Source: Rhodamnia argentea (taxonomy: Eukaryota; Streptophyta; Magnoliopsida; Myrtales; Myrtaceae). From it: 64,000 nucleotides of DNA. A model generated the notes under the pieces. The model worked only from the letters and a program-made list of their open reading frames with translations. It was not told the DNA's origin and searched no databases. Positions 24,856 to 60,370 of this stretch are shown one piece after another; positions within the stretch are counted from its first letter, which is position 1, and every line of letters begins with the position of its first letter. The stretch spans positions 27,658,934 to 27,722,933 of the forward strand of contig NC_063151.1 of NCBI RefSeq assembly GCF_020921035.1, read 5' to 3'. The position numbers were made by a program, and so were the translations under genes.

Positions 24856-26327
24856 CTAGACTTGCAAAGTGGTTTGGCTCAATTTCAGAATGTCTCTCAA
24901 CATTCTACTCACAGAGTCCTTCAGCTCTTGAGTAATCTTCAACTGGGAAGGTACCAATTCCAGTGCATATAGAGTGATGACCTTCATCACAGTATCCAAC
25001 CTCAAGGCATTTGTTTCGCTGTTCCATACACTCTGGTTAACAAACTTGCACGATTCTCTCAAGACGCATTCTCTGCACACCTAAAAGACAAAATCGAAAG
25101 GAAAAAATAATAAGAGATAGACCATCATTGTTCACATTATAAAGACGTCGAATTCATTGAACAGAGAGGAAGCAACTTAAACAACTACTGCCTCACATTG
25201 TCCTCTTGTATACTGAAGAAACTCCGCAATCTTTTAGCAGCAAAGACATTCTTTTTTGCAGTGGAAGGGCAGCCAAACAAAGCTATCTTTTTCAAGTCGC
25301 TACCTGACAACCATCTGGACACAGAACACAAAAGTTCAGCATACTAGGTGGACAGAAGAAAACCAACATCAATGATTGATGCACGAGTACCAAACAAATT
25401 AAAATACAACTCAATAGAAGGATCAAGAATCACCAATTCCCCCTAAATTTACTCAAATACTGCTTCCTGGGTGTCATATGTGATATTGGCTCACAAGTCA
25501 TAACCTCTAAAGTTCTGAGAATCAATCATTCCAAGCTCATACCCTCCTCACAACAACCATGAAAAGTTGTATTTCAAAAGTTCCTCGGCTTCATTTATCT
25601 TAAGCCAATTTAACCTCATCTCTACTGCATATAACACTTCATATCGGCGGAAATGAATAATCCGACGAACTTGGCAAAACGCTTACTTGGCAATCTCTTG
25701 ATGGTCCTTGCCGAACTTCTCGGCCGCGAATTTCACGAAATCTCTGCTGTAACTGTCCTCGAAACGGCTCGCGTCCCATTTCCCATTCTTCTTCAAGAAA
25801 TTAGCCTCTCTAAAGTAACCTTCCTCGTGCAAATGAGACAAGAAAGCCTCCGCATACGGAGAGAGATCCTTTATAACAAGAACACCCTCGGGAGGCCTCT
25901 TAGGCTTTTCCCGCTTTCCATCCACGTAGAGATCGTACAAGCTCGCGGGCGGCGCCCTTTGATCCTGCTCAGGAACAGCCGCATCACTCTTCGGTCCGTC
26001 GTCCCTGCTCTCTAGAATCCTCACCTCCTCCTCCAACCGCTTCAGTTTCAAGCCCAACTCGCTTCTCGCACCATCGGATCCGCTTTCCCTGTCGCGTTCG
26101 TCTGTTTTCGGGGATAGTCCCACCGCTTCTTTGAAGAACACATCGAGCGGCTTCTTCTTGCAGTTGATGTTTTCCTCGGCGTGGGATCGAGTCGAGCTTT
26201 TAGATGCTGCGCCGGTGGCGAAACTGCAGTGAGGGTGAGGTGAGAGAGGTTTGCGGACGGCCGAATGGAGGAAATGAGGTTTAGGGCTTTGGCGTTTGAG
26301 AGAGGACAGGGTTTTGAGAAGACGCAT
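24856..26327 (-). CDS. Predicted organelle-targeted protein with C-terminal Cys cluster
   Basis: Three exons on the minus strand, 25687-26327, 25197-25314 and 24856-25080, join in phase to 327 aa. The N-terminus (MRLLKTLSSLKRQ, then Arg/Ser/His-rich to about residue 45) looks like a mitochondrial or plastid transit peptide. A charged coiled stretch (ELGLKLKRLEEEVRILESRD) follows, then a conserved-looking domain: LYDLYVDGKRE, HEEGYFREANFL, DWLSGSD-like KWLSGSDLKKIALFGCPS, and FFSIQED. The last exon has VCRECVLRESCKFVNQSVW, a C-x2-C-x5-C cluster. This end resembles the region I associate with plant VAR3/OZ-type RanBP2 zinc-finger organelle proteins, but no RanBP2 zinc finger is present. A GTG-initiated extension upstream is not needed; the ATG at about 26327 is preferred. 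Site II motifs upstream fit an organelle gene. Function unknown. Confidence 0.8.
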
Positions 26328-26407
26328 GATCGCCCCAGCACCGGAACTGGGAGCGACTGATCGATCGTGGCGACGCACACTGCCTTTGAGATGGAGAGGA
26401 CTCGAAG

Positions 26408-26476
26408 AAGAAGGCTCAACTTTGGGCCTGTTAAATGGGCCTGATCAGCCCAAACGTTCCTAAGGACCTGAAGCCC
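26408..26476 (-). promoter_or_regulatory. Cluster of site II (GGCCCA/AGCCCA) promoter motifs
   Basis: Four TGGGCC/AGCCCA-type words lie within about 70 bases, 80-150 bases upstream of the start codon of the organelle-protein gene. Such TCP-bound site II elements are typical of plant genes for mitochondrial and ribosomal proteins. Function here is inferred from position only. Confidence 0.5.
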
Positions 26477-26479
26477 AAA

Positions 26480-28118
26480 CGGACTATTTTGGAAAATTGA
26501 ATCAGCATTGTTATATTGGCCACGACTATTCTGGAGAGGACTCATATGAATATGTTTGGTTATGTAATTTTATTTTCCTATTTCTAGATTTAGAAGTAAC
26601 TTTGAAGTCACTTGAAGAAGTTAAAAAATAAAAAAACTGTTTCTCTTCAGAAGTAGAAAAATCGAAAATCAACTTCTGAGCGGAAGTCGATTTATAAAAC
26701 ATAAGTATTGTCATGTGCGCCTTTAATAATACTAAGTTATATCACCTGTGGCCTAAAAGTCAAAGGTTGTCGAGCCTATTATCGCAGCCTCGCTACACAC
26801 AAAGTTTAATACACACTTCTCCCAACAAGACTATCATGGGTCTAGTTATTACTTAAGATATGCCTGCTAAGATTTTGTCGTTCTTGAAAAAGGGAGGGTG
26901 AAATACGGATGATGACATAAGTTTTTCAGGTGTTTGATATTTAATCTCTAACAACGAACATCTCTTCATTCTTGTAAATGTCATATTGTAACGTGAAAAT
27001 ATCATGCTCTATTCATTTTAAGGCGTTCAAGTGACTCACTCATTCCAATTGCCGATTTTTCAGCAATCTAAGGGAGGTGAAATGCTTTTCTTCCCTCCTC
27101 CTTAGAGTTCTCATCTTTACACAACTTTCTTTTTCAACCTTCCAGAGAAGAGGGTTTGAACTAGTCCCTCCACTCCTTTTTCCTTTGGTTGATTTGGTTC
27201 TTTGTTTTTTTTTTTTATTACTTTCCTCCCAATTTGAAGAGCTTTTCTCTTTTGATCTAGAAGAGGTTTCTATCTCGATCTAGTCTAGATTTGGGGACGT
27301 CGAATCTAGGTGCGCAACGCTGAAAAACAAGGCACCAACGGAGATTTATATGTGTGCTCATTCGATAACCAACCACCGATTTTGATTCGAAGAAGTCATA
27401 GATATGCTTTTGGAGCGTGTGACCCCTAATCTTATTATGGTGATTTTATCTTTTTATTTGAAACTTGTTTTGTTTCAAAGTTGTGTGAGATTTGACTTGG
27501 TTTGTGGTTGGACTGCTTGATTTCTCCTTGGTACTTATGTGGAAATGAATGGAATATTATTTTGAAAAAAAAAAAAAAAGGTGTTGAAAGAGAAGTTCCA
27601 CGGTAGTTGGCATGAGCTCGAGCACATGGCAGGACCATTTTCTTTTTCTTTTGTTCTCCCCCCCAAGAATAGAATTTCCAGGGTCACCAAATTCAATCAT
27701 TTTAAAGCACAAGCACAAGAAACGAAATTGGAACTTTGGTTAGTGACTGGTGAGAACATTCCTCCACTACTTCGCACGACCTCAATATCATAATTCCGTG
27801 GAAAGCCAATGATAAAGCTCTTGTTAAGGCTTCAATCAAACCCAGAAAAAGAAAATATTATCAGCGAAATTATTGGCACGTGGCTGAGAGCATGTTCGGA
27901 GGCATCGATCCGGGGGATTGCACGTGCACGACGACCGTTTGTAAACCTTGCACTGCCCTTTATTCTCTCCGTGAATCGTGGGGTCGTTCGATTCTGGACT
28001 ACCCAAGGCCGCCTCTTAGACTTCCTCCTATGCCTTCGCATTGATATAGGCCGTGGAAGAGATTTTGGAGATTGGAGACATAATTCGTTGGATATGATCA
28101 ATCCTACGACAAAAAGAG
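26480..28118. other. Intergenic DNA, possible retroposed segment
   Basis: Mostly AT-rich with no recognised gene. At 27560-27579 a run of A follows a T/G-rich transcript-like stretch (27060-27560), as in a retroposed RNA copy with a 3' poly(A), but I cannot find a matching target duplication. Between 27580 and 28100 no feature is seen; the 123-residue frame at 27809-28180 has no recognisable content. Confidence 0.35.
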
Positions 28119-28772
28119 AGAGAAGGAAAAAGTATCAAAACATTCATAAACCTATTGCATTAGTGTCAATTCAATCCTAAACATTTCAATTGCGCCAATT
28201 TAATCCTAAACTTTTTGTATTGTACCGACTTAATCATAAACTTTTTAATTTTGTTGATTCAATCATAAATTTTCAATTGCGCCACTGAGTTGTCTTAGCT
28301 ATGTGGCTGAATCGCGTTGACGTGTTCATTTTTTAATAATTTTTTCAAATTGAATTCTTAATTATTTTGGCCGGCATGGACCGCCTTGTTCGTGGCCTCG
28401 CTAGATCTGGGCCGGGCGAGGGCCACCTCGTCGGCCATGAGTGACGCCGCAAAGGCCCTCGCCCGGATCTAGCGAGGACGCGGATAAGGCGGTCCTTGCC
28501 GATCAAACTTAAAGAACAAGACTTAAAGAGGAAAAAATTAATTAAACATTTAAGCTCTTTTTTAATTTTTTTGAAAAATATCCACATCGGTGCTAGTTAA
28601 GCCATATAGGCCGGCCGACATCCACGTTAGCTATTTTCGGCCAAAATTGATCAAAATGGACTCAATTGATATAAATGCAAAATGTTTATGACTGAATTGT
28701 CATAATTGAAAGGTTTAAATCTAAATTGGCACAAATGCAATATGTTTAGGTTTTGTTTGATATGTTTCCCCC
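28119..28772. mobile_element. Non-autonomous GC-core element with TIRs and 8-bp TSD
   Basis: The ends are inverted copies of about 150 bp: the left begins near AAAAAGTATCAAAACATTC and the right, on the minus strand, GGGGGAAACATATCAAAC; both continue with 'ttgcatt' and 'aaatt' words. AAAAAGAG flanks both sides (28111-28118 and 28773-28780). The core at 28365-28500 is GC-rich with GGCGAGGGCC and CGGATCTAGCGAGG words, itself partly palindromic. TSD length and long TIRs suggest the Mutator-like (MULE) group. No transposase. Confidence 0.7.
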
Positions 28773-28780
28773 AAAAAGAG

Positions 28781-29266
28781 TTTATCGAAGTACGTTCTTA
28801 CTAAGTTCAATCTAGTCTAATTTGTGATTGACGAGCCTGTTTATTTACTCTTAAGTTCACGAAACAAAATTTGGTTCTTTGCTTTACGGCAAGAATTTAA
28901 AATATCATCGAAACTTCAAAATTATATGTGAATCTACGTGTCGGCATTCATATATTCTAAAAGCTTCAGGTTTTTCGGGTCAAGAAAAATCAAAGTGTGC
29001 GTACGCAGCAAAATTTAGGCTTAACAACAAATAAAATGTCAAAGTCAATATGGACAAGCTTTGCTACGATAAAATGAGTTTTGGTGCTCTACAGAGCTCG
29101 GTACGATTGGTCGGCCTTGCGCGGTCCAGCATAGAAAGCACATAAAATACGTCTCCCCATGTTAATTCTAGAACGAGCCCGATAAAAGATTGGTTTGATA
29201 TCTCCATGAAAACCAGCTTAACAAACACATGAATCTCGTCTCTCTAAATTTTAGCTTAGTGCATTT
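28781..29266. other. AT-rich spacer left of the copia palindrome
   Basis: No gene, repeat or RNA recognised in this stretch. The five bases before the LTR (CATTT) do not match those beyond the other end of the palindrome. Confidence 0.5.
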
Positions 29267-29743
29267 TGTAACGACAGAAAAATAGGGGCTAACTGCCCAT
29301 GACACCCCTCCACTACTTTTGTGTGTGTAACCACCCCACGATTAGGAGAGAGAAGAGGGAAACATGTGTAAGTTTTTTTTAAGCTTTGGGAGTTTGTTGT
29401 CTGTATTCTGCTCTGCGTTTTGCATCAATGGTGTTTGGGGTCTCAGATCTCTTGTGAAGGGAATCTTGGGTGTGCAATATCTTGGGGTTGTGAGAGTTGT
29501 ATTGTAGAAAGGTTTGCTGTTCAGAGTGCGATCCACTGTTTGGTCTTTGTTGCGTTGAGAGGTGTGCGTTGTAATTTTTCCTGGTCATCAAAGAGAGTTC
29601 CGTGTGATTGCCCCGTGGATGTAGACAGGCCAACCTGTCGAATCACGTAATCTGTGTCTCTCCATCTTTACTTTGTTGCACTTGTCTTGTTTATCGTTTT
29701 ATCCAACGCAAGCATCAATTACATGTGAAGAATCATATCAACA
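29267..29743 (+). repeat. Left copia LTR (5' LTR orientation)
   Basis: Starts TGTAACGACAG and ends ATATCAACA, directly followed by AG and the primer-binding site. Length about 477 bp, against about 473 bp for the right one. It is the only LTR of the plus-strand arm. Confidence 0.85.
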
Positions 29744-29745
29744 AG

Positions 29746-29757
29746 TGGTATCAGAGC
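29746..29757 (+). other. Primer-binding site (initiator Met-tRNA type)
   Basis: TGGTATCAGAGC is the standard copia PBS, complementary to the 3' end of the initiator methionine tRNA, two bases after the LTR. Confidence 0.93.
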
Positions 29758-29821
29758 CGAAGGTTCGAGAAACCTGTGCCGCACGTGATAAACGTCAACA
29801 TACGTGTTTCAGCTTTGTGCG

Positions 29822-32275
29822 ATGGCCACGAGGACTTCTACAAAGTTCGAGGTGCCAAAATTCAATGGATCTAATTATCCATTGTGGAAGCTGAAAATGC
29901 AAGCGGTGTTGGTGAAAGACGGCAGTGTAGTTGCTCTTGCCGGCAAAGGTAAAAAGCTGGCAGAGATGAAAGATGAGGATTTTGTACGTAAAGATCAAAC
30001 GGCAATGGCGGATCTACTTACGGCATTAGATGATTCTGTCATCTTCAATGTCTCCGATCAAACTATTGCCAAAGGTTTGTGAGACAAATTGAAGAATCTC
30101 TAAGAAGGGAAAACAATGTCAAACAAAATTTTTCTTCATCGACAATTATACGGTTTAAAGATGAAGGAACGCTCCTCTTTCCAAGAGCACCCGAGCAGAT
30201 TCAACACCCTGTTAAGCAAATTGACTTCCATCGACGTCAAAATTGAGGATGACGAGAAGGTAACACTTCTTTTGTGTTCTATGCTCGATACATGGGATTC
30301 CTTGATCATGAATCTTAGTACTGGAGTGGATCTTGACATGGATTCTATTATTGCTACGTTGCTGACGGAAGAGTCTTGTAGAAAAACTCTCGAGAGCACT
30401 TCTAGTAATGCTATGATGGCTAGGGGAAGATCCATGGACAAAGGTTCTAGTGGGAGAAAGCAGTCAAGGTCCAAGTCAAAGAAGCGAACGTTGGGTCCTT
30501 GTTGAAAATGTGGACAGATGGGTCACATGCGTAAAGATTGTAAATCCAAGGAGAATTAGCGAAATTTCAAATCTGATTCTAAAAATGCATCATCATTGAC
30601 AAGTTCCCAAGGAAACATCATTGTCTATACAGACTTATCCGAAGATGGCGAGTTGATGTCCGCAGATTCAATAAAAAGAGTGCAATATCAATGGATTTTG
30701 GATTCGGGCGCTTCTTTCCGTATGACACCATATCGAGACTGGTTTCATACATATCAATCATGTGATGGAGGTACAATATACATGGGCAATGATAACTCAT
30801 GTCATGTTGTGGGATTGGAGATGTCCGTGTTACCATGTTTGATGGCATCGTGCATACAATATCGGGTGTACGACATGTACCGGATCTGCGGAAAAGTCTA
30901 CTATCGTTGGGAAAGTTTGATGAAAATGGCGATAAGATTACTTTGGAAAAGAGATGATTTAAGATCGTCAAAGGAGCACTTATCGCGGCGAAAGGAGAAT
31001 TGGTAGGTGGTTTATACGGGCTCATTGGAGAGACCATAGTTAGTGAGGCCATAGTTGCCAATGCTGTGATAGAGTCGGCAACTATCCGGCATAGGCGTTT
31101 GGGACACATGAGCATGTAGGGACTAAAGGTACTTCTTGATTGTGGTCTTCTTCATGGTTTAAAGATTATTAATTTAGACTTTTGTGAAGATTGCCTATTC
31201 GAAAAATTTCATAGAACTCCTTTTTGTCGTTCGAAAGCAAGAAGTCAGAATATTTTAGACTTGATACATTATGATACTTGGGAGTCTCTTGATGAGTCTT
31301 TGGGTGGTGCTAAATGTTTTATTTCATTTATTGACGATCTTTCCAGAAAATTTTGGGTTTACATCCTTAAAAAGAAAAGTGATGCTTTTGCTTCTTTTAA
31401 GAAGTTTAAAGCATTGGTAGAAAATAAAAAAGGAACAAAAATAAAGTGTTTGAGAACCGATAATGGAGGAGAATATATGTCGCAAGAATTCTTAAATTTT
31501 TGCAGCAAGCATGGCATTAAAAGACACTTCACGGTTCTAGAAACTCCACAGCAAAATGGAGTGGCTGAGCATATGAATCGTACGCTAATGGATCGTGTTC
31601 GAAGTATGTTGAGCTGTCTTGGTATGAATTAGAGTTTTTGGGTTGAAGTTGTATGTACAGCGTGTTACATAGTAAATCGTTCCCCAACAACGGCTCTTAA
31701 TGGACAGATTCCAGAAGAGGTATGGTTTGGAAAACCAGTTAACTATTCTTTCCTCCGTACTTTTGGTTGTAATACTTATATGTGGGTTCCAAAAGAGCAA
31801 AGGACTAAGCTTGAAGCAAGGTCCATAAAGTGTATTTTTCTTGGCTAAGCAGAAGGTGTAAAGGGGTACATATTGTGGGATCCTACTACTCGCAAATTTG
31901 TTATTAGCCGAGATATCGTCTTCAATAAACATTCATTGCGTAAAGACAAAGAGATGCCAAATGCTGAGCAACCACGGATATTTGAACTTGAATCATCAAG
32001 CGAAGTTCAAGATCAATCTGAAGAACATTTGACTGATACGGATGAAGCTACTGGGGATGAAACCGATAGAGAGCATATAAACAAAACTAGTATTGAAACT
32101 CGGTGTGACCAAGGACCTCCTAGGAGGACTACTAGACCTCCAATTTGGCTAAATGATTATGTGACTACTTATGCTTGCATCACTGAAGAGGGGGAGCCTT
32201 GTATATATCGGGAAGCTTGTGATTCCAGTGATGCTCCTCAATGGAGGGCATCTATGGAGGAGGAAATGTAGTCCC
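29822..32275 (+). pseudogene. Left-arm copia gag-protease-integrase, interrupted
   Basis: Gag starts MATRTSTKFEVPKFNGSNYP, then FVRKDQTAMADLL. Stops interrupt it after IAKGL and again before the zinc knuckle, where CxKCGQMGHMRKDC has a TGA at 30503-30505. The protease motif ILDSGASF is at about 30700. Integrase follows with WESLDESLGGAK, CLRTDNGGEYMSQEF and TPQQNGVAE, the catalytic DDE-type core, ending at a TAG (31630-31632) that the right arm shares. Then comes the linker region to SSDAPQWRASMEEEM and a stop; homology to the other arm ends at about 32301, before the RT domain. No working polyprotein can be made. Confidence 0.9.
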
Positions 32276-32335
32276 TACACAAAACCAAAACCTAGGATCT
32301 TGCATCACAGCTCCGATTTGCCCAATTGTCACCAA

Positions 32336-33790
32336 TCAACTAGTAACCGCAAGCCCAAGAGAATTTCTGCACCATATAAACTTCTCTCTCGCAATGGGCT
32401 TTGTCAACACATCTGCTACGTTGTCATTGGTGTGAATCTTCTGCAAAGAGATGACTCCATCTTCCACTACATCACGAATAAAATGGTACTTGACATCAAT
32501 GTGTTTTGTACGAGAGTGAAACATTGGATTAACAGCCAAATGTAACGCACTCTGACTATCACAACGAATAGTGATCACTTTTTGTTTGATTCTTAGCTCA
32601 TCAAGCAATCTCTTTAACCAAATGCCTTCCTTGCATGCATCTGTTACTACAATATACTCCGCTTTAGTAGTTGATAATGCAACCGCAGATTGTAATCTGG
32701 ACATCCAACTAATTGCTCCGTTGGCTAAAGAGAAACAATACCCAGTAGTAGATCTTCGTCTATCACGATTTCCTACATAGTCTGCATCTACATATCCAAC
32801 CAACTGTAGATTTTGACTACTATAATGAATAGCCATGTCAGCGATACCCTTCAAGTACCGAAGGATCCATTTCACCACGGTCCAATGATCTCGACCCGGA
32901 TTTGCCATGTGCCTGCCGATTGCTCCCATTGCTTGTGCAATGTCTGGTCTGGTGCGGACCATGGCAAACATAAGACTCCCAATTGCCGATGCATATGGTA
33001 CTCGAGCCATCTCTGTCTTCTCTGCTCCTGTGCTAGGATTCTGTTTAGAAGATAATTTACAACCAATAGGAAGTGGGGTATTAACCGGTTTGGCGTTCTG
33101 CATATTGAAGCGCCGCGTAACCTCTTCAACATAACTCTTTTGAGTTATCCGGATCTTCCTATTTTCACGATCTCTGAGTACGGTCATCCCAAGAATTCGG
33201 TTTACGGCTCCCAAATCTTTCATATCGAATTCCCTAGCCAAACGAGCTTTAAGGTTTGCAATACCTTCTTTCGAAGTACAGTAACTCAACATGTTGTCGA
33301 CATACAACAACAAGATTATAAAGTCACAATTACCATGATTGCAAACATAGGCACAATGATCCGCTTCACATCTTTTGAACCCCAAACTCACAATGAAAGA
33401 ATCAAATCGCTTGTACCAGCATCTTGGCGCCTGCTTCAAGCCATAAAGCGAATTGCTCAGCCGACAAACCAAACCCTTCTTGTTTTCTTCAATAAAGCCT
33501 TCAGGCTGAGTCATGTAAATTTCTTCATCAAGATTTCCATGCAAAAAGACTGTTTTAACATCCAACCGCTCAAGCTCTAAATCAAGCACAACACAATACG
33601 AATAGTAGTTAGGCGAACAATTGGGGAAAATATTTCATTGAAATCAATACCTGATTTCTAAGCATAGCCTTTCACCACTAAACGAGATTTGTATCGTTCA
33701 ATATTCCCGTTAGTGTCTCTTTTCAGCTTGTAAACCCACTTGCAACCGATAGCCTTTCGTCCTTCGGGTAACTTGACAAGATCCTAGGTT
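32336..33790 (-). pseudogene. Copia reverse transcriptase and RNase H (right-arm polyprotein)
   Basis: Reading leftward: KAIGCKWVYKLKRDTNG (RT start, about 33750), then a TAG and a frame break near 33590, then LDVKTVFLHGNLDEEIYM, GLKQAPRCWYKRFD and the polymerase motif LLLYVDNMLS, where the second catalytic Asp of the usual YVDDM is Asn. RNase H follows: GYVDADYVGNRDRRRSTTGY, TTKAEYI and ADVLTKPIAREKF, stopping at 32336. About 35 bases after the stop the sequence switches to the inverted left arm, so the 3' end of the element (polypurine tract, 3' LTR) is absent. Confidence 0.9.
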
Positions 33791-35991
33791 TTGTTTTTGT
33801 GTAGGGACTCCATTTCCTCCTCCATAGATGCCCTCCATTGAGGAGCATCGCTAGAATCACAAGCTTCCCGATATGAACAAGGCTGCCCCTCTTCAGTGAT
33901 GCAAGCATAAGTCGTCACATAATCATTTAGCCAAATTGGAGGTCTAGTAGTCCTCCTAGGAGGTCCTTGGTCACACCGAGTTTCAATATTAGTTTTGTCT
34001 ATATGCTCTCTATCAGTTTCATCTCCAGTAGCTTCATCTGTATAAGTCAAATGTTCTTTAGATTGATTTTGAACTTCGCTTGATGATTCAAGTTCAAATA
34101 TTTGTGGTTGCTCAACATTTGGCATCTCTTTGTCTTTCTACAATGAATCTTCATTGAAGAAGACATCTCGGCTAATAACGACTTTGCGGGTAGTAGGATC
34201 CCACAATCTGTACCCCTTTACACCTTCCGCATAGCCAAGAAAAATACCCTTTCTGGACCTTGCTTCAAGCTTAGTCCTTTGTTCTTTAGGAACCCACATA
34301 TAAGTATTACAACCAAAAGTACGGAGGAAAGAATAGTCAATTGGTTTTCCGGACCATATCTCTTCCGGAATCTGTCCATTAAGAGCCGTTGTTGGGGAAC
34401 GATTTACTATGTAACATGCCGTACATACAGCTTCAGCCCAAAAACTCTAATTCATACCAGCACAGCTCAACATACTTCGAACACAATCCATTAGCGTACG
34501 ATTCATACGCTTAGCCACTCCATTTTGCTGTGGAGTTCCGAGAACCGTGAAGTGTCTTTTAATGCCATGCTCGTTGCAAAAATCTAAGAATTCTTGCGAC
34601 ATATATTCTCCTCCATTATCGGTTCTCAAACACTTTATTTTTGTTCCTTTTTTATTTTCCACCAATGCTTTAAACTTCTTAAAAGAAGCAAAATCATCAC
34701 TTTTCTTTTTAAGGATGTAAATCCAAACTTTTATGGAAAGATCGTCAAGAAATGAAATAAAATATTTGGCACCACCCAAAGACTCATCAAGAGACTCCCA
34801 AGTATCAGAATGTATCAAGTCTAAAATATTCTGACTTCTTGCTTTCGAACGAACAAAAGGAGTTCTATGAAATTTTCCGAATAGGCAATCTTCACAAAAG
34901 TCTAAATTAATAGTCTTTAAACCAGGAAGAAGACCACGATCAAGAAGTACCTTTAGTCCCCGCATGCTCATGTGTCCCAAACGCCCGTGCTAGATAGTTG
35001 CCGACTCTGTCACAGCATTGGCGACTATGGCTTCACTAACTATGGTCACTCCAATGAGCCCGTATAAACCACCTACCAATTCTCCTTTCGCCATGATAAG
35101 TGCTCCTTTGACGATCTTAGATCGTCTCATTTCCAGAGTAATCTTATAGCCATTTTCATCAAACTTTCTCAACGATAGTAGACTTTTCCGCAGATCCGGT
35201 ACATGTCGTACACCCGATATTATATGCACGATGCCATCAAACATGGTAACACGAACATCTCCAATCCCCACAACATGACATGAGTTATCATTGCCCATGT
35301 ATACCGTACCTCCATCACATGATTGATATGTATGAAACCAGTCTCGATGTGGTGTCATATGGAAAAAAGCGCCCGAATCCAAAATCCATTGATATTACAC
35401 GCTCTTTATTGAATCTACGGACATCACCTCGCCATCTTCGGATAAGTCTGTATTTACAACGATGTTTCCTTGGGAACTTGTCAATGATGATGCATTTTTA
35501 GAATCGGATTTGAAATTTTGTTGATTCTCCTTGGATTTACAATCTTTACGCATGTGACCCATCTGTCCACATTTTCAACAAGGACCCAACGTTCGCCTCT
35601 TTGACTTGGACCTTAACTGCTTTCTCCCACTAGAACCTTTGTCCATGGATCTTCCCCTAGCCATCATAGCATTACCAGAAGTGCTCTCGAGAGTTTTTCT
35701 ACGAGACTCTTCCGTCAGCAATGTAGCAATAATCGAATCCATGTCAAGATCTACTCCAATACTAAGATTCATGATCAAGGAATCCCATGTATCGAGCATA
35801 GAACACGTAAGAAGTGTTACCTTCTCGTCATCCTCAATTTTGACGCCGATGGAAGTCAATTTGCTTAACAGGGTGTTGAATCTGTTCGTGTGCTCTTGGA
35901 AAGAGGAGCCTTCCTTCATCTTTAAGCTGTATAATTGTCGCCGAAGAAAAATTTTGTTTGACATTGTTTTCCCTTCGTAGAGATTCTTCAA
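33784..35991 (-). pseudogene. Right-arm copia gag C-terminus, protease and integrase
   Basis: From right to left: gag C-terminal half (MSNKIFLRRQLYSLK to SGRKQLRSKSK), the zinc knuckle with the same TGA as the left arm (35575-35577), protease (ILDSGAFFHMTPHRD), the GAG-pre-integrase GHMSMRGLKVLLDRG, the integrase with TDNGGEYMSQEF and TPQQNGVAKRMNR, the shared stop at 34447-34449, and the linker ending APQWRASMEEEMESLHKN. This arm has fewer stops than the left one and runs on into the RT segment. Confidence 0.9.
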
Positions 35992-36173
35992 TTTGTCCTA
36001 CAAACCTTTGGCAGTAGTTTGATCAGAGACATTGAAGAGGACAGAATCATCTAATGCCAGAAGTAGATCCGCCATTGCCGTTTGATCTTTCTGTACAAAA
36101 TACTCATCTTTCATCTTTGCCGGCAAGAGCAACTACACAGCCCTCTTTCACCAACATTGCTTGCATTTTCAGC

Positions 36174-36616
36174 GGCTAAAGTACACTAGAAGTGCCAAAA
36201 CTTGTGTACGGCGCTCACTTTAGTGACAAAACTTTCAAAATGATCACTTAAGTGCCAACTTTTTTAAAAAAACGATCACTTAAGTGCTAACTTCGTTTAA
36301 AAACGATCACTTCAGTGCCAACTTCAATTTGAGCCGACGTGGCTTGTTGAAAATCCGACATGTGCTATTTTTTTTATTAATATTTGAGCCGACGTGGCTC
36401 GGTGGAGTTGACATTGAAGTGATCGTTTTTTTAAAAAATTGGCACTTAAAGGATTGTTTTTAAAAAAAAAATTGACACTTAAGTGATCGTTTTGAAAGTT
36501 TTGGCACTAAAGTGATCGTTTTTCAAAAAATTTGGTACTTAAGTGATCGTTTTGAAAGTTTTGATACTAAAGTGAGCGCCATACACAAGTTTTGGCACTT
36601 GTAGTGTACTTAAGCC
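36174..36616. mobile_element. MULE-like non-autonomous element nested in copia gag
   Basis: Length 443 bp with long inverted ends: left GGCTAAAGTACACTAGAAGT, right on the minus strand GGGCTTAAGTACACTACAAG, matching for over 80 bases. The target duplication CATTTTCAGC is at 36164-36173 and 36617-36626; 9-10 bp is typical of Mutator-like elements. Inside are repeats of 'gatcacttaagtgcca'. The left copia arm (29888-29906) has the uninterrupted site. A relative lies at about 60653-61556. Confidence 0.88.
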
Positions 36617-36694
36617 CATTTTCAGCTTCCACAATGGATAATTGGATCCATTGAATTTTGGCACCTCGAACTTTGTAGAAGTCGACGTGGCCAT
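36617..36694 (-). pseudogene. Right-arm copia gag start
   Basis: The gag start codon is at 36692-36694 (MATST-type, cognate of the left arm's MATRTST), and the frame runs to the nested MULE-like element at 36616; the continuation lies on its other side from 36163 down to 35992, with stops. Confidence 0.75.
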
Positions 36695-36752
36695 CGCACA
36701 AAGCTGAAACACATATGTTGATCATGTGTGGCACAGGCTTCTCGAACCTTCA

Positions 36753-36764
36753 ACTCTGATACCA
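36753..36764 (-). other. Primer-binding site of the right copia arm
   Basis: On the minus strand TGGTATCAGAGT, one base different from the left PBS, two bases after the right LTR. Confidence 0.9.
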
Positions 36765-36766
36765 CT

Positions 36767-37239
36767 TGTTGATATAATTCTTCACACGTAATCAATGCTT
36801 GCGTTGGATAAAACGATAAACAAGACAAGTGCAACAAAGTAAAGATGGAGAGACACAGATTTACGTGATTCGACAAGTTGGCCTGTCTACATCCACGGGG
36901 CAATTACACGGAACTCTCTTTGATGACCAGGAAAAATTACAACGCACACCTCTTAACACGGCAAACATCAAACAGTGGGTCGCACTCTCAACAGCGAACC
37001 TTTCTATAGTACAACTCTCACAACCCAGAGATATTGCACACCCAAGATTCCCTTCACAAGAGATCCGAGACCAACAAACACCATTGACGCAAATCGCAGA
37101 GCAGAATACAGAGAAAAACTCCCAAAGCTAAAAAACTTACACATGTTTTCCTTTTCTCTCTCCTAAACGTGGGTGGTTACACACACAAAAGTAGTGGAGG
37201 GGTGTCATTGGCAGTAGCCCCTATTTTTCTGTTGTTACA
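36767..37239 (-). repeat. Right copia LTR (5' LTR orientation on the minus strand)
   Basis: On the minus strand it starts TGTAACAACAG at 37239 and ends TATATCAACA at 36767. It is collinear with the left LTR with scattered substitutions. It is the 5' LTR of the minus-strand arm, not a 3' LTR of the plus-strand one, as the adjacent PBS proves. Confidence 0.88.
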
Positions 37240-38694
37240 GTTAGGACAAAAATTATCGCCAAGTTGCTGGGGCGGGAACATGCATGATGTCCTATTATAT
37301 TTGCAACGGAAGCCTTCATCATCATCTTTTTAAGGAAAATTGCAATGGGAGGCTGAGTATTCTTGATTGAAAACTAGATACCAGAGGGTAGGTCTAACTA
37401 CTGCAATTTGTCTTCATTAGCACGGTGCATTTGCTTGACAATGCCAAAACACGATTGTGAATTTTTGCTTTACATGTACGTCAATATCACAAGATTTTCA
37501 GGTGACAGTTTCATGTATCCATGTTAAAACGCCCCTTAGGTAACTTTTTACAAGAGCTCGATTTGTGTTAATGAATTATCATAGTTAACTGGAGGTCGGT
37601 AATTTTGAGATTATGGATGGTCCGACAATTCAATTCCAAAGTAGCATGGACCACAAGTAAAATATTTGAACATTGTGTCCATGACTAACGATTCATAGAA
37701 ATAATTAAGAGATTGATTCACAAAGTACATTGTGATTGAATTCTTAAATATTTTTCATGTGACACTCAACTCGTTAAAACTTATATATAGGTTCTGATCA
37801 TGTGAACTTTACATATAAATCTACGTTCCCCATGAGAAGAAAAGGTCAATTCTCTTTCAACATTTTGTTGTTCCCGGGTACTACATCATCTACCGACAAT
37901 ACCAAACGTCGATCGCGTCTTCAGCTTCAATTTTCTAGTAATCTAAAAGATTCAATTGTGTAGCTCTTTACTAACCAACAATTGATTTAAGCACATGATG
38001 GAACACGAACACGATGAACGAAAAGCGCCCCTTGCTCTCTTTCACTTAAAAAGAAGAAGAAAGCAGCTTCGTGGACGTATAAATTTTTAGTCGACTGCAC
38101 AAAGTTTGGCAAGAATTGTACCGCAAGGGATAAAATATTATATAGTTGACATAGATCTAAATTGAACCAAAGAATATATAGCACTAGGTTCCAACTCCCG
38201 AATGACTCTCCCCCAAGTAATCGGCGAAGCACGTAACCAAATCATTACCCAATTTGCACATGCGACTTTGGAGGAATATTTCCAATGATGCCATGTGAAT
38301 TATTACCATTAGATGAACATAACATATATTAACCAGCTCTAGGAATATTTTATAAACAAATACTTTGCAGAGCATTCAACTGAAGAGAGAGAGTGCGACG
38401 AGAAAGTTCCAATTGAGAGCATGAAGTGGGACCATGGATCTTGTCTCAAATAGTAGTAGGAAATATTCAATAACTCTAATCATTCTCCATATCACTAATG
38501 TTATTCATTTGTGTTTGGACCCTACTAGCATAATAGTTTGACAAGTGGGATATTAGGCATAAGATTAGATATGGATTCCGTCAAGATTGCTAAATATTTT
38601 TTGACATTCATAACACTTGCGATTGATATTGCACCATTATACTGTTACATTGTTAGCTTTTCAAATCCCCTTATGTTTATAGGTAGTTATGTAC
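37240..38694. other. AT-rich spacer right of the copia palindrome
   Basis: No gene or repeat recognised. Small open frames (up to 81 residues) are of random type. Confidence 0.45.
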
Positions 38695-39200
38695 TCAATG
38701 TACAAACATTTCATCTGTGACCCACGCTAACTTGAAATGAATGGTTGCCCCGCCCATAATATCGAAATCCCGGACCTCCAATTAACTATGGTAATTCATT
38801 ATTAACAAATTGAGCTCTCGTAAAAAAACTACCCACGTCAAGAGGTATTTTAATATGAGAATGTGAAACAGTCACAAAAAATGTTGTAGTATTCCCATCT
38901 ATGGAGAACGAAAATTCACAAATGTCTTTTAGCATCACCAATAATTACAAACGGCTCAATACAGTGTAGCAATCAAGAAAAGCATAACCTTCTCGAACTT
39001 TATGTCCGGGTAACTTGTATGCTTGTTAGTATTATCTCTTCAAACTTAATCGAATATAACTGAAACCATATAAATTAAATTAAAAAAAAACATTTTTTTT
39101 AATGACCCTAGGAATTAGAAAATGTCCTCAAATGAAACTAACTAGCCGCTATGTATATCGTTATTAATTAGTGACTTGTGTGTAGTTGGTCTCCTTATCT
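38695..39200. repeat. Copy A of a duplicated segment (partner at about 42800-43360)
   Basis: Shares with 42800-43360 an ordered series of similar phrases, including 'ccaattaactatggtaattcatta', 'cggctcaatacagtgt', 'ggtaacttgt' and 'aggaattagaaaatgtcctcaaatgaaa' versions. Divergence and small indels are considerable, so it is an old duplication. Confidence 0.65.
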
Positions 39201-39739
39201 GCTATTGGGTTTACAGATAAATTATTAGTTGGGGGCACAAATCGGGGGTTCAGCCATGAGTTAATTCAACGAGTCAAGTTTAAGTTGACCTGTTTGCGTC
39301 CTTCTTTAAAAGAAATAGACATAATCAAAGCATGAATGTTGGTAATTAGTGCAATTCAAATTAATGAAGTCGATCTAGAATGACTTTTATTATTTAAGTA
39401 TCCGACTTTTGTAATTGGACTTCTATTTAGCCAAAAAAAATATATTTAACTTTTCAAACTATACAAATATAGACATGTAAAATCATACATGGTATTTTAA
39501 AATTTAATCTTTTAAAAATCTTGAATTTTGAAAGGAAAGTTAAATGTACGAAAAATTATCTTACATGCCCGTGACATTACAAGCTCTGTATGTACGTCAA
39601 TTAAAGTGTTTGCTGCACGTGCATTGTTTCTTTCCCTTACCTAGAACTCAATTTCCTTTTATTGTTTCATCAGAATAATATAAATGGCAAGTGGATCTTT
39701 CATGAAATATGAGTGATCACGAGTACTTCGTTATTGGGA

Positions 39740-39860
39740 GAAAAATGACGAGCGCTTAGTCATAGCATATCCCATTGTATAAAGTCTCAAAAACTGGCAT
39801 GGGTGTCTTCATGAACCAAAGTTCCGCCTCGACTCAGACAGAAACATTCATCAACAACTG
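39740..39860 (+). pseudogene. Relic of the DUF247 gene's 5' flank
   Basis: The stretch with TATAAAGTCTCAAAAACTGG, then 'gggtgtcttc' and 'tcgactcagacagaaac', matches the sequence just upstream of the DUF247 start codon (about 45680-45810). The coding part that should follow is absent. It is probably the remains of a second DUF247 copy. Confidence 0.6.
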
Positions 39861-40219
39861 TTTCCTGGAATGTTCAAGTCGATAATGACGTAAGGCAAGT
39901 ATGTCATATTTCCTCCAAGAATGACAATACATATGCTTGGAGGAAGCTTCTCGGGGCAAAATCTGTCCTTAAACCGCATGTCAGACGTATTACTGGAGAT
40001 GGACAGCATCTAATGGAATGATCCTTCGCATATAAGTTAGTACAAATGAGCTCAGTGATAAGTTAACGAAAGGGCGTTGCGAACATAAGAAGGTATGTTC
40101 AAATCAGAAGGAAATCCAATTACAATAGGTTCGAAGTAGGATGAGCAAAGAGGATTTGTTCAGTAACACAAGAAAAGATTTCTATGCTAACTCGAAGTTG
40201 AACGGTTGGACCACACATG

Positions 40220-41335
40220 GTATCAAGGGAAAATTACAAAAAAAGTCATAAACGTATTGTAATTGTGTCAATTTAGTTCTCAACTTTTTCTTCTTTTGCC
40301 AATATTTAGTCATGAACCTTTTGAATTGTGTTAATTCGATCCATTTTGTTGGCCGGCGCGGACGTGGATAATTTTTAACAATACTTTAATATATATTTTT
40401 TTCTCTCTTTTTTTCCTTCCTACTCCTACTGTCACAGGTGAGGGCTTCGCGGTCGTGGGTGAGGCCGCCTTGCCTTTGCCCATGGTCGGCGAGGCCTTCG
40501 CAGCCCTCATTTAGTGGCCGACGATAGGGGTGAGGGGTTCTCGGTCCGGTCCGGTCCGGTTCCCCTTAAGAACTGGAAACCGGAGAACTCGCAACCGGAC
40601 CGGTGGTCCCGGCTCCCGGGCCGTTCAATGAGACTAGTAATAAACCGTAGAATTTTCATTTTCTGACCTAAGTTGCAGCTCATTGCCACCATGGATGGAT
40701 CGTTGGATTTAAATCATAGCTAATAACACCCGCTCGAATGAGACCGTGATCACAGGACAATGAGATGCAAGTTGCATTTAAAGCCGAAGTTATCAACATA
40801 TTTTGCAACCGAGGTCAAGGAGGTTCCAAATTATCTAGCTTTGACAAAAAATCTGGCTATATAATTGATTTGGAGAAGGTTATATCCACTTGCATGATTT
40901 TTCATCAGTATAATGCGAGAAGAGAAGCAAAATGGGCGTAGTGAATCTAGAGTAGTAGAGTGGGAACAGAAACTCAGTGAAGAGAACATGGTAGTCAGCT
41001 CAGCAAAGCTACGCGTTGATTGACAGTAGAAAAAGATGACAACACAGTAGTGTCATCTCTCTCACGATCTACGTTACATTTAAAAATTAAAAAAATTAAA
41101 ATCGATCGGTCCGGTTTGGGGGGTCTGGTCCAATCCTGTACCCATGGAACCGGGAACTAGATCGCCCGAATACCGGTTCCATTTTTAAGAACCGGGAACT
41201 AGATCGCCCGAATACCGATTCCATTTTTAAGAACCGGGAATCAGACCACCAACCTCTAGAATTGGGAACCGGACCACTGGTCCAAGCGGTTCCCGGTCCG
41301 GGCAGTTCCTCGTTCTTCACCAACACTTTAGTGTC
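40220..41335. mobile_element. GC-core repeat half with an inner 'CCGGTTC' element
   Basis: The left part (40220-40520) is one arm and core of a GC-core element ('attgtaattgtgtcaattta', then GAGGCC words). At about 40527 it changes to an inner element whose left end has GTGAGGGGTTCTCGGTCCGG and whose right end (to about 41330) has GAACCGG/CCGGTTCC words, inverted to the left. The middle, 40640-41090, has no recognised feature. No coding capacity. Confidence 0.5.
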
Positions 41336-57990: not shown

Positions 57991-58304
57991 ATTTTTTAGC
58001 ATTTTGAAACTTTTATTTGCTTTACTTACCAATTTTAAATATTTACCAAATAGTTTTGCTTATCAACCCTCATTTGAGTTGCTCACTGATCTTTACATTT
58101 TCCTTTGTAAATTTACAACGTGCATTTAGTTTTCTAATTACCGGCTTCTATTATTCCTACCAGAAAAATTCTCTCATCTCTTACAAATTTTTATTCATAT
58201 TTTTTTACCAACTATTATACAAAATTACTAACTTTTATTTGAGCTACTTGTCAACTATTTTTCCGATCAAGGAAATCATTTGAAAAGTCGATTAATTCTA
58301 GATG

Positions 58305-60370
58305 GGAAAAATGTGAGGAGGGTTCCTACAAAGGTACCGAAAACACTTAAAAACACGTTGAAGTTCCCCGGATCAGCATTTACAGTGTTGAAAAAGCATA
58401 CTGCTACTTCATTATATGATCTATTAATTATTTGAGTCTTCCATGACTCCAGTATACAGCTAATGGAAATTTGAAAGTGGCTTTCATCCTTCTGATCTTC
58501 CTGCTAGTATTAACAAATATTAAACAGTTGAGTCAACCACTCTTGAAAGCAATAATAAGGAGAATGATCAAATCGACGAATTCAAAAGTCTAGACACGTG
58601 ATGCCCATAAGCTAAAAAAACATAAAAAAAAAAACAAAAACCATGACGTTACAAGGCTAGGAAGATTGAACGTTAGCAACTATTGAACATGGGAATGCCC
58701 CAAAAAAATTTAAAAAAAAAAACTCTGTCTAGCATGTAGTAATAATGCTTTGAGCGGATGGCAAAAGGGCGATTGTTAAATGATACTACTAACTACAGGA
58801 CAACACCTCCATCTAGAAGTCGGGCGTGAGCCATAACCTGACCTCGCTGATGAAACACGACTTCCCCACCAAAGTTTTGGGGCACATATTTAATATCGAC
58901 ATACTACGAAAGAGTATGAACACCTTCAAAAGGAACAAGTATATTTCCGGAAAAGGGCGAGAAATCTGGAAAATGTTCACATAAGAAACCGCAAGAACTA
59001 GTGTATCTTAAGTTGATGGTCACTTCTCTTTTAAAGAAATTGAGTGGCCACTTCTTCTTGCAACCACAGTATGAGAGACTACCGAACGTCTACTACGTCA
59101 GGCAAGTTCCAGCAACCCATCAGCTCTTGACCGAGAAAATAGAACTACGAGAGCAAATATCCCAAGAAGGATCAAAAGGAACGTGACAAAAGAAACGCGT
59201 GGGGAATCTAGACACTTAAAAACCACTGGAAATTTCGAACGAAGTCGTCTCCATAAAAAAGGAAGAAGATGATGATGAAAAACTCAAATCGGAAGCGAAG
59301 AAACTCACAGAAGGGCATTTGGTGGAAAACATTTTAGGGGAAGCGTCGACCAAGTACACCACAAGCTCTTTACTCGACGCTCTTTGCTGCAAACAAAACG
59401 GCAAATAAACTCGCTCATTCCCCAACACGAGCCGAAACAGATAAAAGGGGCAGAAAGAAAGCAGAACCCGAAGAGCTTCGTTCTCAGGATCGTCATCGTC
59501 GTCCCTGAAAACATCATCTGGGTCCAACTCCATTGCCACCGCTTTAACTCTGCTTCCCTGGGAATCTCCAAAATGGCAAACGCACACGCACAGAAAGATT
59601 GGAATTGCGAAGCGGCTGGAGTGGACTCTGGCTTATGGTTTTTCCCTCTTTGGTCACCCGCGTTACTTTTAGCGCTCAGAAAGTTGGGATGGAATAGGAT
59701 TGAGTATCGTGCAAGCTTCAAAGAACCCGTTCAGCTGCCGGGCTGCCCCGACGGATCCAAATCCAAGAGACCCGCCCATCATTTGGACCGATTGCATTTT
59801 GGGTTTTTTTTTTTTTTTTCCGGTGAATAAATGTTTATCTTGGCCCAATTATAAGTGAGTTGGACTGGGAAAAGATCTCCCCTTCTTGGGCACTGGCCCG
59901 TCCAAACTCGATCAACTTTCATCAAATGGTATTTTTTCTGATCATTGGCAAGTTTTTTTTTTATATTTTTTTCCGAATATCATTCACTAGTTCGCGCAAA
60001 AGGTTTTTAGCAACACCGATCTCGACCTAGCTAGCCCGCGAGCTTAATTCTCGGGTGTATTCTCGCCGTCCATCTATCATTCTATTCTCAAATCTCATTT
60101 GTTGCGTACTTGTAATGATATACGGGAAAATGTTGCATTTTATATGAAGGTTTGATATAATGTTTGTAATCTAGTTAGCATGATCCATTCATGCTTTTCT
60201 TTCTTTTTGTATTGATAAGTACTTCACATCCTGCCATTAAATTCCCAGATAATCTGCGTGATGAATACTTTTATCAAGATATTTACGAAAAAAAAAATCG
60301 AGAAGAGAATGTACATACTAATTGTCACTTGCTGGTGGGATAACTTGAGATATGAAACTTTATGTGAAAT
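58305..60370. repeat. KU70 5' end: duplicated copy
   Basis: Homology begins at about 58305 ('aaatgtgaggagggt', matching 55073 onward), inside KU70 intron 3, and continues through exons 3, 2 and 1 and their upstream flank to about 60370. It therefore holds a KU70 start but not exons 4-19. Scattered substitutions and small indels show it is not very recent. Confidence 0.88.
58384..59533 (-). pseudogene. Truncated KU70 copy: exons 1-3 only
   Basis: Exon 1 59468-59533 (MELDPDDVFRDDDDDPENEA), exon 2 59309-59386 (KELVVYLVDASPKMFSTKCPS region) and exon 3 58384-58503. All three have the same lengths (66, 78, 120) as in KU70 and remain open, with splice sites kept except for changes such as Leu to Trp in ILESWKTQ. 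Exons 4-19 are missing; the duplicated DNA ends in intron 3. If transcribed it could yield only about 88 residues of the vWA-like domain plus intron-derived sequence, or a chimeric transcript running into the intact KU70 located downstream on the same strand. Confidence 0.9.

Follow-up and report, generated by a model that had tools for sequence, protein, structure and literature searches.

The inverted repeat at 29267-37239, about 8 kb in size, consists of the 5' halves of two Ty1/copia elements, hereafter A and B, that face each other tail to tail in the window (the whole 64-kb stretch of DNA analysed here). We think it probable that these halves stem from two tail-to-tail insertions of one old burst, whose facing tails were later removed by a deletion closed by end joining. 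The locus is ordinary in kind and its anatomy is well resolved; as inverted repeats that retrotransposons form naturally may act as triggers of silencing, it is useful to know by which route they arise, and tests based on target sites, private changes and junctions can help in telling a folded element apart from a pair joined by deletion.

Anatomy of the inverted repeat

A gapless search of the region 26000-41000 returned 14 inverted pairs, in the longest of which the arms measure 1,492, 858, 212, 145, and 105 nt, and the spacer between the inner arm ends measures 1,474 nt by the same type of repeat finder. The inverted repeat is far above chance expectation. When the two arms were compared by BLAST, their identity was 93.4% over 2,414 columns and 91.8% over another 635. 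At each outer end an LTR begins exactly (TGTAAC, at 29267 on the plus strand and at 37239 on the minus strand), and both starts face outward. Reading inward, arm A (29267-32302, +) has the order LTR-PBS-gag-PR-IN, and element B (37239 to 32303, −) the order LTR-PBS-gag-PR-IN-RT-RH; arm B (37239-33777) runs uninterrupted into RT/RNase H down to 32303, and the segment forming the loop is part of the minus-strand element B. A previous description of this DNA, made from its letters and referred to below as the sequence-only reading, had reported two facing arms of this composition, a single RT/RNase H segment between them and no 3' LTR; our analysis bears out all three, and assigns the joining segment to B. 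The features are collected in Table 1.

Table 1. Features of the tail-to-tail copia pair and of its immediate borders.
Feature	Coordinates	Strand	Remark
Element A 5' LTR	29267..29743	+	477 bp, TGTAAC...ATCAACA
Element A primer binding site	29746..29757	+	TGGTATCAGAGC
Element A gag-PR-IN	29822..32302	+	reading frames broken; ends at IN/RT border
Inner junction	32302..32303	.	IN/RT border of A joined to reversed 3' end of B; 1 bp common to both (alignment read by eye)
Element B RT/RNase H segment (loop)	32303..33776	-	cut ~30 nt short of 3' LTR
417-aa open frame within the loop	32336-33589	-	
Element B gag-PR-IN	33777..36173	-	inner portion of arm B
MITE in gag of arm B	36174..36616	-	443 nt including one copy of the direct repeat
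Element B primer binding site	36753..36764	-	TGGTATCAGAGT
Element B 5' LTR	36767..37239	-	473 bp
5-mer outside the LTR of A	29262..29266	+	CATTT
5-mer outside the LTR of B	37240..37244	+	GTTAG; 1/5 match to CATTT, so no target-site duplication

Pfam domains Retrotran_gag_2 and rve (the integrase core) were found in both arms, Pol_BBD in arm B (its counterpart in A lies outside the scan) and RVT_2 in the loop; the RNase H of B was recognised by eye in the translation. The Ty1/copia order gag-PR-IN-RT-RH, with a copia-type gag and an RVT_2 reverse transcriptase, can be followed along the whole of B, while the domains of A are gag and then IN only, in the order kept by copia elements. Each half starts with a TG...CA LTR and has, directly behind it, a tRNA primer binding site, which in A we take to be of the initiator-Met type. 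A 3' LTR preceded by a polypurine tract is absent from both halves, each being cut off before that point; tract and 3' LTR are kept in the relatives C7, C11:15.1M and C2:2.12M. These relatives enter their 3' LTR about 30 nt past the last base that matches B, and the intervening stretch includes a tract like AAGTGGGAGAA; B is thus a near-complete element that lacks its 3' LTR. Judged by these domains and ends, A and B are fragments of complete Ty1/copia elements.

Relatives of the two elements and divergence of the arms

We searched the genome (346.7 Mb, 74 contigs) with three parts of the element. The LTR gave 19 matches at about ten places, the window being one of them (16/16 candidates scored). 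The RT search gave 44 matches with 40 of 59 candidates scored, hence a lower bound: at least five places (the window, C7:9.78M, C11:15.14M, C11:13.63M, and C2:2.12M) reach 84% or more over stretches above 200 nt, one more match at 84% spans 62 nt, and the remaining ones among the matches listed are weaker. The integrase search, with 22/22 candidates scored, recovered A, B (94% to A), C11:15.1M (90%, over half the length), C7 (87%), and C11:13.6M (86%), and no further match above 75%; within their subfamily, the integrase region is kept in A and B only, the next matches standing at 86-90%. On these counts the copia family of A and B is a rare, low-copy one. The closest subfamily comprises A, B, a solo LTR on C3 and a rearranged element, C2:2.12M, in which an inverted RT piece lies between the LTRs with junctions sharing 3 and 5 bases; its rearrangement appears to predate its integration.

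In their internal part, the two arms appear to have changed to different extents. In the internal arm beyond the MITE, with changes polarised by C7, A carries 83 private changes over 2,156 sites and B 44 over 2,117 (p=0.0007); A exceeds B in 8 of 10 internal bins, and with two outgroups the counts are 47 and 25 (p=0.013). Private substitutions in the LTRs, gap columns left out, number 9 for A and 13 for B (p=0.52), a ratio that differs from the internal one (p=0.035); LTRs and internal part pooled give 92 against 57 (p=0.005). One has to remember, then, that the clock argument is not clean, since the LTRs do not share the internal excess of A.

The LTR distances are star-like (A-B 6.4%, A-C3 5.9%, B-C3 6.3%), and among the substitutions shared 2:3 between five LTRs, one pairs A with B, two pair A with C3 and two pair B with C3; A and B are therefore at least as distant from each other as from the C3 insertion, which lies on a different chromosome. 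For comparison, the LTR pair of C2:2.12M is 7.4% apart. The dN/dS ratio between A and B is 0.82, which does not depart from neutrality (p=0.58; 553 codons, 4 stop codons dropped), against 0.53 (arm) and 0.39 (loop) between B and C7, and 0.46 (arm) and 0.49 (loop) between B and C11. Because the A-B ratio is near neutral and the others are lower, the bulk of the divergence between A and B probably arose after insertion. Substitution rates are in the order of 0.7-1.3e-8 per site per year, at which a divergence of 6% would correspond to roughly 2-4.5 million years.

Origin of the tail-to-tail pair

The sequence-only reading had taken the locus for a single element folded into an 8-kb inverted repeat, a claim that is not supported by its borders or by its private changes, which are about twice as many in A as in B internally, although not in the LTRs. 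If a single palindromic cDNA had integrated, a 5-bp target-site duplication (TSD) would be expected at the outer ends of the 8-kb unit, where we found none (1/5 bases alike). In the five relatives compared, out of the about ten places of the LTR search, the flanking bases agree at 5/5 (C3, C10) or 4/5 positions (C7, C11:15.1M, C2:2.12M). Decay does not account for the loss, as the LTR pairs of C7 and C11 are 16.8% and 17.2% apart, hence much older elements, and these still keep 4/5.

The order of events that we infer is the following: A (+) and B (−), both of one low-copy Ty1/copia subfamily, would have inserted close together, with their tails facing, in a single old burst. Afterwards the RT/RH region and 3' LTR of A, the last ~30 nt and the 3' LTR of B, and anything between them would have been lost to a deletion closed by end joining at 1 bp of microhomology, leaving the 8-kb inverted repeat, into whose arm B a MITE would also have inserted. 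Two insertions are indicated by the missing TSD and, with the doubt raised by the LTRs, by the unequal internal changes, while the single burst is suggested by the star-like LTR distances together with the near-neutral A-B dN/dS; the single base shared at the inner junction favours this course further. No orphan RT-3'LTR tail of A was present among the 44 RT matches listed (40/59 candidates scored). Against two insertions, the chance adjacency of two rare copies is unlikely for this family taken by itself: as a rough estimate, which leaves out lost copies and the choice of this locus for its oddness, about 0.003 pairs would be expected within 10 kb for 11 insertions. The absence of an A excess in the LTRs also counts against it.

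The main rival, possible though clearly less probable, is the capture of cDNA at a double-strand break: either a break in or beside A received an incomplete cDNA of B by ligation, or a dimer of A and B cDNAs, end-joined tail to tail, was captured as such. The dimer version predicts exact LTR starts, a near-blunt inner junction and no TSD, and it needs no coincidence to account for the adjacency; what we observe is in keeping with capture: exact TG ends on both sides without a TSD, 1 bp of microhomology at the inner junction, and a rare family. In yeast, according to the sections of PMC10802722 on the subject, retrotransposon cDNA, including replication intermediates of Ty1, enters breaks by end joining. 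The likeness extends to incomplete cDNA, end joining and no expected TSD, but these sections stress short pieces, with a bias to insertions of ~45-300 bp (PMC10802722), whereas 5-8 kb would be needed here, for a putative capture in a plant. Moreover, the internal excess of private changes in A would demand that the two templates differed or that A was the older one.

Far less probable is the palindromic cDNA mentioned above, which reverse transcription would have produced and integrase would have inserted in one piece. It finds some echo in C2:2.12M, the subfamily copy with an inverted RT piece that apparently arose before integration; the A-B LTR divergence is close to that of the LTR pair of this copy, and the similar LTR private counts would fit one event. 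It has to contend with the missing TSD, the unequal internal changes and LTRs that do not pair A with B.

An assembly artefact, in which distant elements were mis-joined or a read folded back, is more improbable still: a junction of 1 bp would suit it, but 141 of 2,396 sites and the MITE distinguish the arms from each other, which would not be so in a fold-back read, and the locus lies within a 36.3-Mb contig, in a window without a single N.

Three further candidates were set aside. A nested insertion (B into A or A into B) is rejected, as the sequence beyond each outer LTR is not that of the other element; a genomic fold-back duplication is rejected as well, homology ending at the LTR ends; and an inversion with a breakpoint in A is disfavoured, the RT matches listed (40/59 scored) containing no orphan A tail with the 3' LTR of B. 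The flanks 26601-29266 and 37240-40000 have no common match longer than 20 nt. In a search for a paralogous empty site, the left flank had no second full-length match among 40 of 4,899 candidates scored, and its remaining matches are MITE-like stretches.

Hairpin potential and silencing

The sequence-only reading was right that the anatomy lends itself to a hairpin, with facing arms of ~3 kb around the 1,474-nt RT/RH loop; RNA transcribed from one LTR or the other could in principle adopt a long, imperfect hairpin structure and serve as a dicer substrate. It also saw in such RNA a source of small RNAs against the copia family, comparable in principle to Mu killer. Whether the locus is a working silencer in trans, with LTR-driven or read-through hairpin RNA giving 21-24-nt small RNAs that silence other copies, is a question of function that we judged separately from the origin, and we consider such a role unlikely. 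The stem would offer material for it, with at least 788 perfect 21-nt windows (at least 638 beyond the MITE and 150 in the LTR/leader part), and of the 3,016 21-mers of arm A, some have exact matches in every one of the five relatives checked: 280 in C7, 133 in C11, 133 in C2:2.12M, 129 in C3, and 84 in C10. The majority of these 21-mers, on the other hand, are absent from the other copies checked.

Among 97 transitions between A and B, 40 are at CG and 26 at CHG sites, and of the 127 private changes polarised in the arms, 39 are CG or CHG transitions, a point in favour of silencing; this suggests a trace of past methylation, which is usual for most plant transposable elements. Among the differences from C7=C11, CG and CHG transitions represent 22/74 in arm B, 27/98 in arm A, and 10/55 in the loop (arm B against loop, p=0.15, too few to tell). 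A footprint more marked in the arms than in the loop would have pointed to methylation directed by the hairpin; as the loop bears the footprint too, the latter does not single out an effect of the hairpin.

Among the 10 ORFs scanned outside the repeat we identified no gene reading into the locus: the nearest scanned ORF on the left (25683-26378) points away from it, and ORFs with DUF247 begin at 45.8 kb. An unassigned 123-aa ORF at 27809-28180 (+), additional to the 10 scanned, points towards the locus. We consider the 8-kb inverted repeat to be most likely an inert methylated relic. In a variant that we hold to be very improbable, two end-joined cDNAs captured together at a break during the last burst would have formed a self-targeting hairpin that helped to shut the family down; if true, this would explain why the family has few copies.

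The comparison with Mu killer of maize stands in its structural part and is weaker than claimed in its mechanistic one. As the sections of PMC3440606 on the locus describe it, Mu killer is likewise a rearranged element with the same end twice, a partial inverted duplication of coding sequence and a theoretical hairpin RNA, and an inverted duplication of element coding sequence is what we find here. The same sections report that silenced plants had short antisense transcripts driven by an internal promoter of the locus, and that there was sense RNA from flanking read-through in plants failing to silence (PMC3440606). Mu killer derives from the DNA transposon MuDR, has an inverted duplication of ~1.3 kb beside amy4 and is a genetically shown silencer (PMC3440606), whereas we deal with an LTR retrotransposon whose arms of ~3 kb are 6% diverged and beside which no gene reading in was identified among the ORFs scanned; we would keep the analogy as a structural one only.

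Another parallel is EVD of Arabidopsis, for which the part of PMC11624286 on LTR hairpins proposes head-to-head or tail-to-tail insertions as their source. In both cases two copies of one Copia element are in inverted arrangement; that proposal is a suggestion for new insertions (PMC11624286), while the pair described here is observed, old and decayed, with its inner ends deleted. Among the papers listed in our literature search, we recognised none on a tail-to-tail copia pair without 3' LTRs. Should small RNAs of the arms be found, the locus would offer a natural case in which to ask how a low-copy family might be silenced as a whole from one locus.

One feature of arm B was missing from the earlier description, namely the MITE in its gag. 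Its termini are GGCTTAAGTACACTA and GGCTAAAGTACACTA, and it is flanked by a 9-10-nt direct repeat, GCTGAAAAT[G]. From these ends and the direct repeat, the MITE is presumably of the Mutator type.

Rearranged and internally deleted relatives

Two relatives of the tail-to-tail copia elements A and B lie elsewhere in the same genome. The first, on C2, belongs to the A/B subfamily and carries between its LTRs a 248-nt inverted RT piece, which begins right behind the start of the primer binding site (PBS) and whose junctions have 3 and 5 bases common to both sides; a stretch of about 100 nt is repeated near the 3' end, and the target-site duplication is 4/5. The rearrangement seems to be older than the integration of the element, of the type expected from template switching. 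The second, on C10, has an LTR fragment, a gag-protease piece and an LTR fragment in contiguous order, with TTTAC on either side, and is a copia family member with an internal deletion.

Coordinates of the family relatives and of other features in the window
Feature	Location
Subfamily member of A/B, 1.7 kb	L010:2659-4331 (G000:C2:2.12M)
Internally deleted copia family member	L008:461-1827 (G000:C10:20.23M)
23S rRNA fragment	window:21282-21399
MITE-like sequence	window:28122-28774
DUF247 locus	window:45831-47502
Direct repeats, 1.6 kb each	window:55066-56657 and 58300-59895

Other features of the window

The genome contains very many sequences related to the MITE-like one left of the inverted repeat (40 of 4,899 first-look candidates were scored); this MITE-like sequence is possibly of one repeat type with the MITE in gag of element B. 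The rRNA fragment is of bacterial type, probably inserted organelle DNA. At the DUF247 locus, two ORFs share the DUF247 matches between them, perhaps as a pseudogene or an intron-containing gene. The direct repeats (85% identity, spacing 1.6 kb) may be long LTRs belonging to an element that is either old or non-autonomous.
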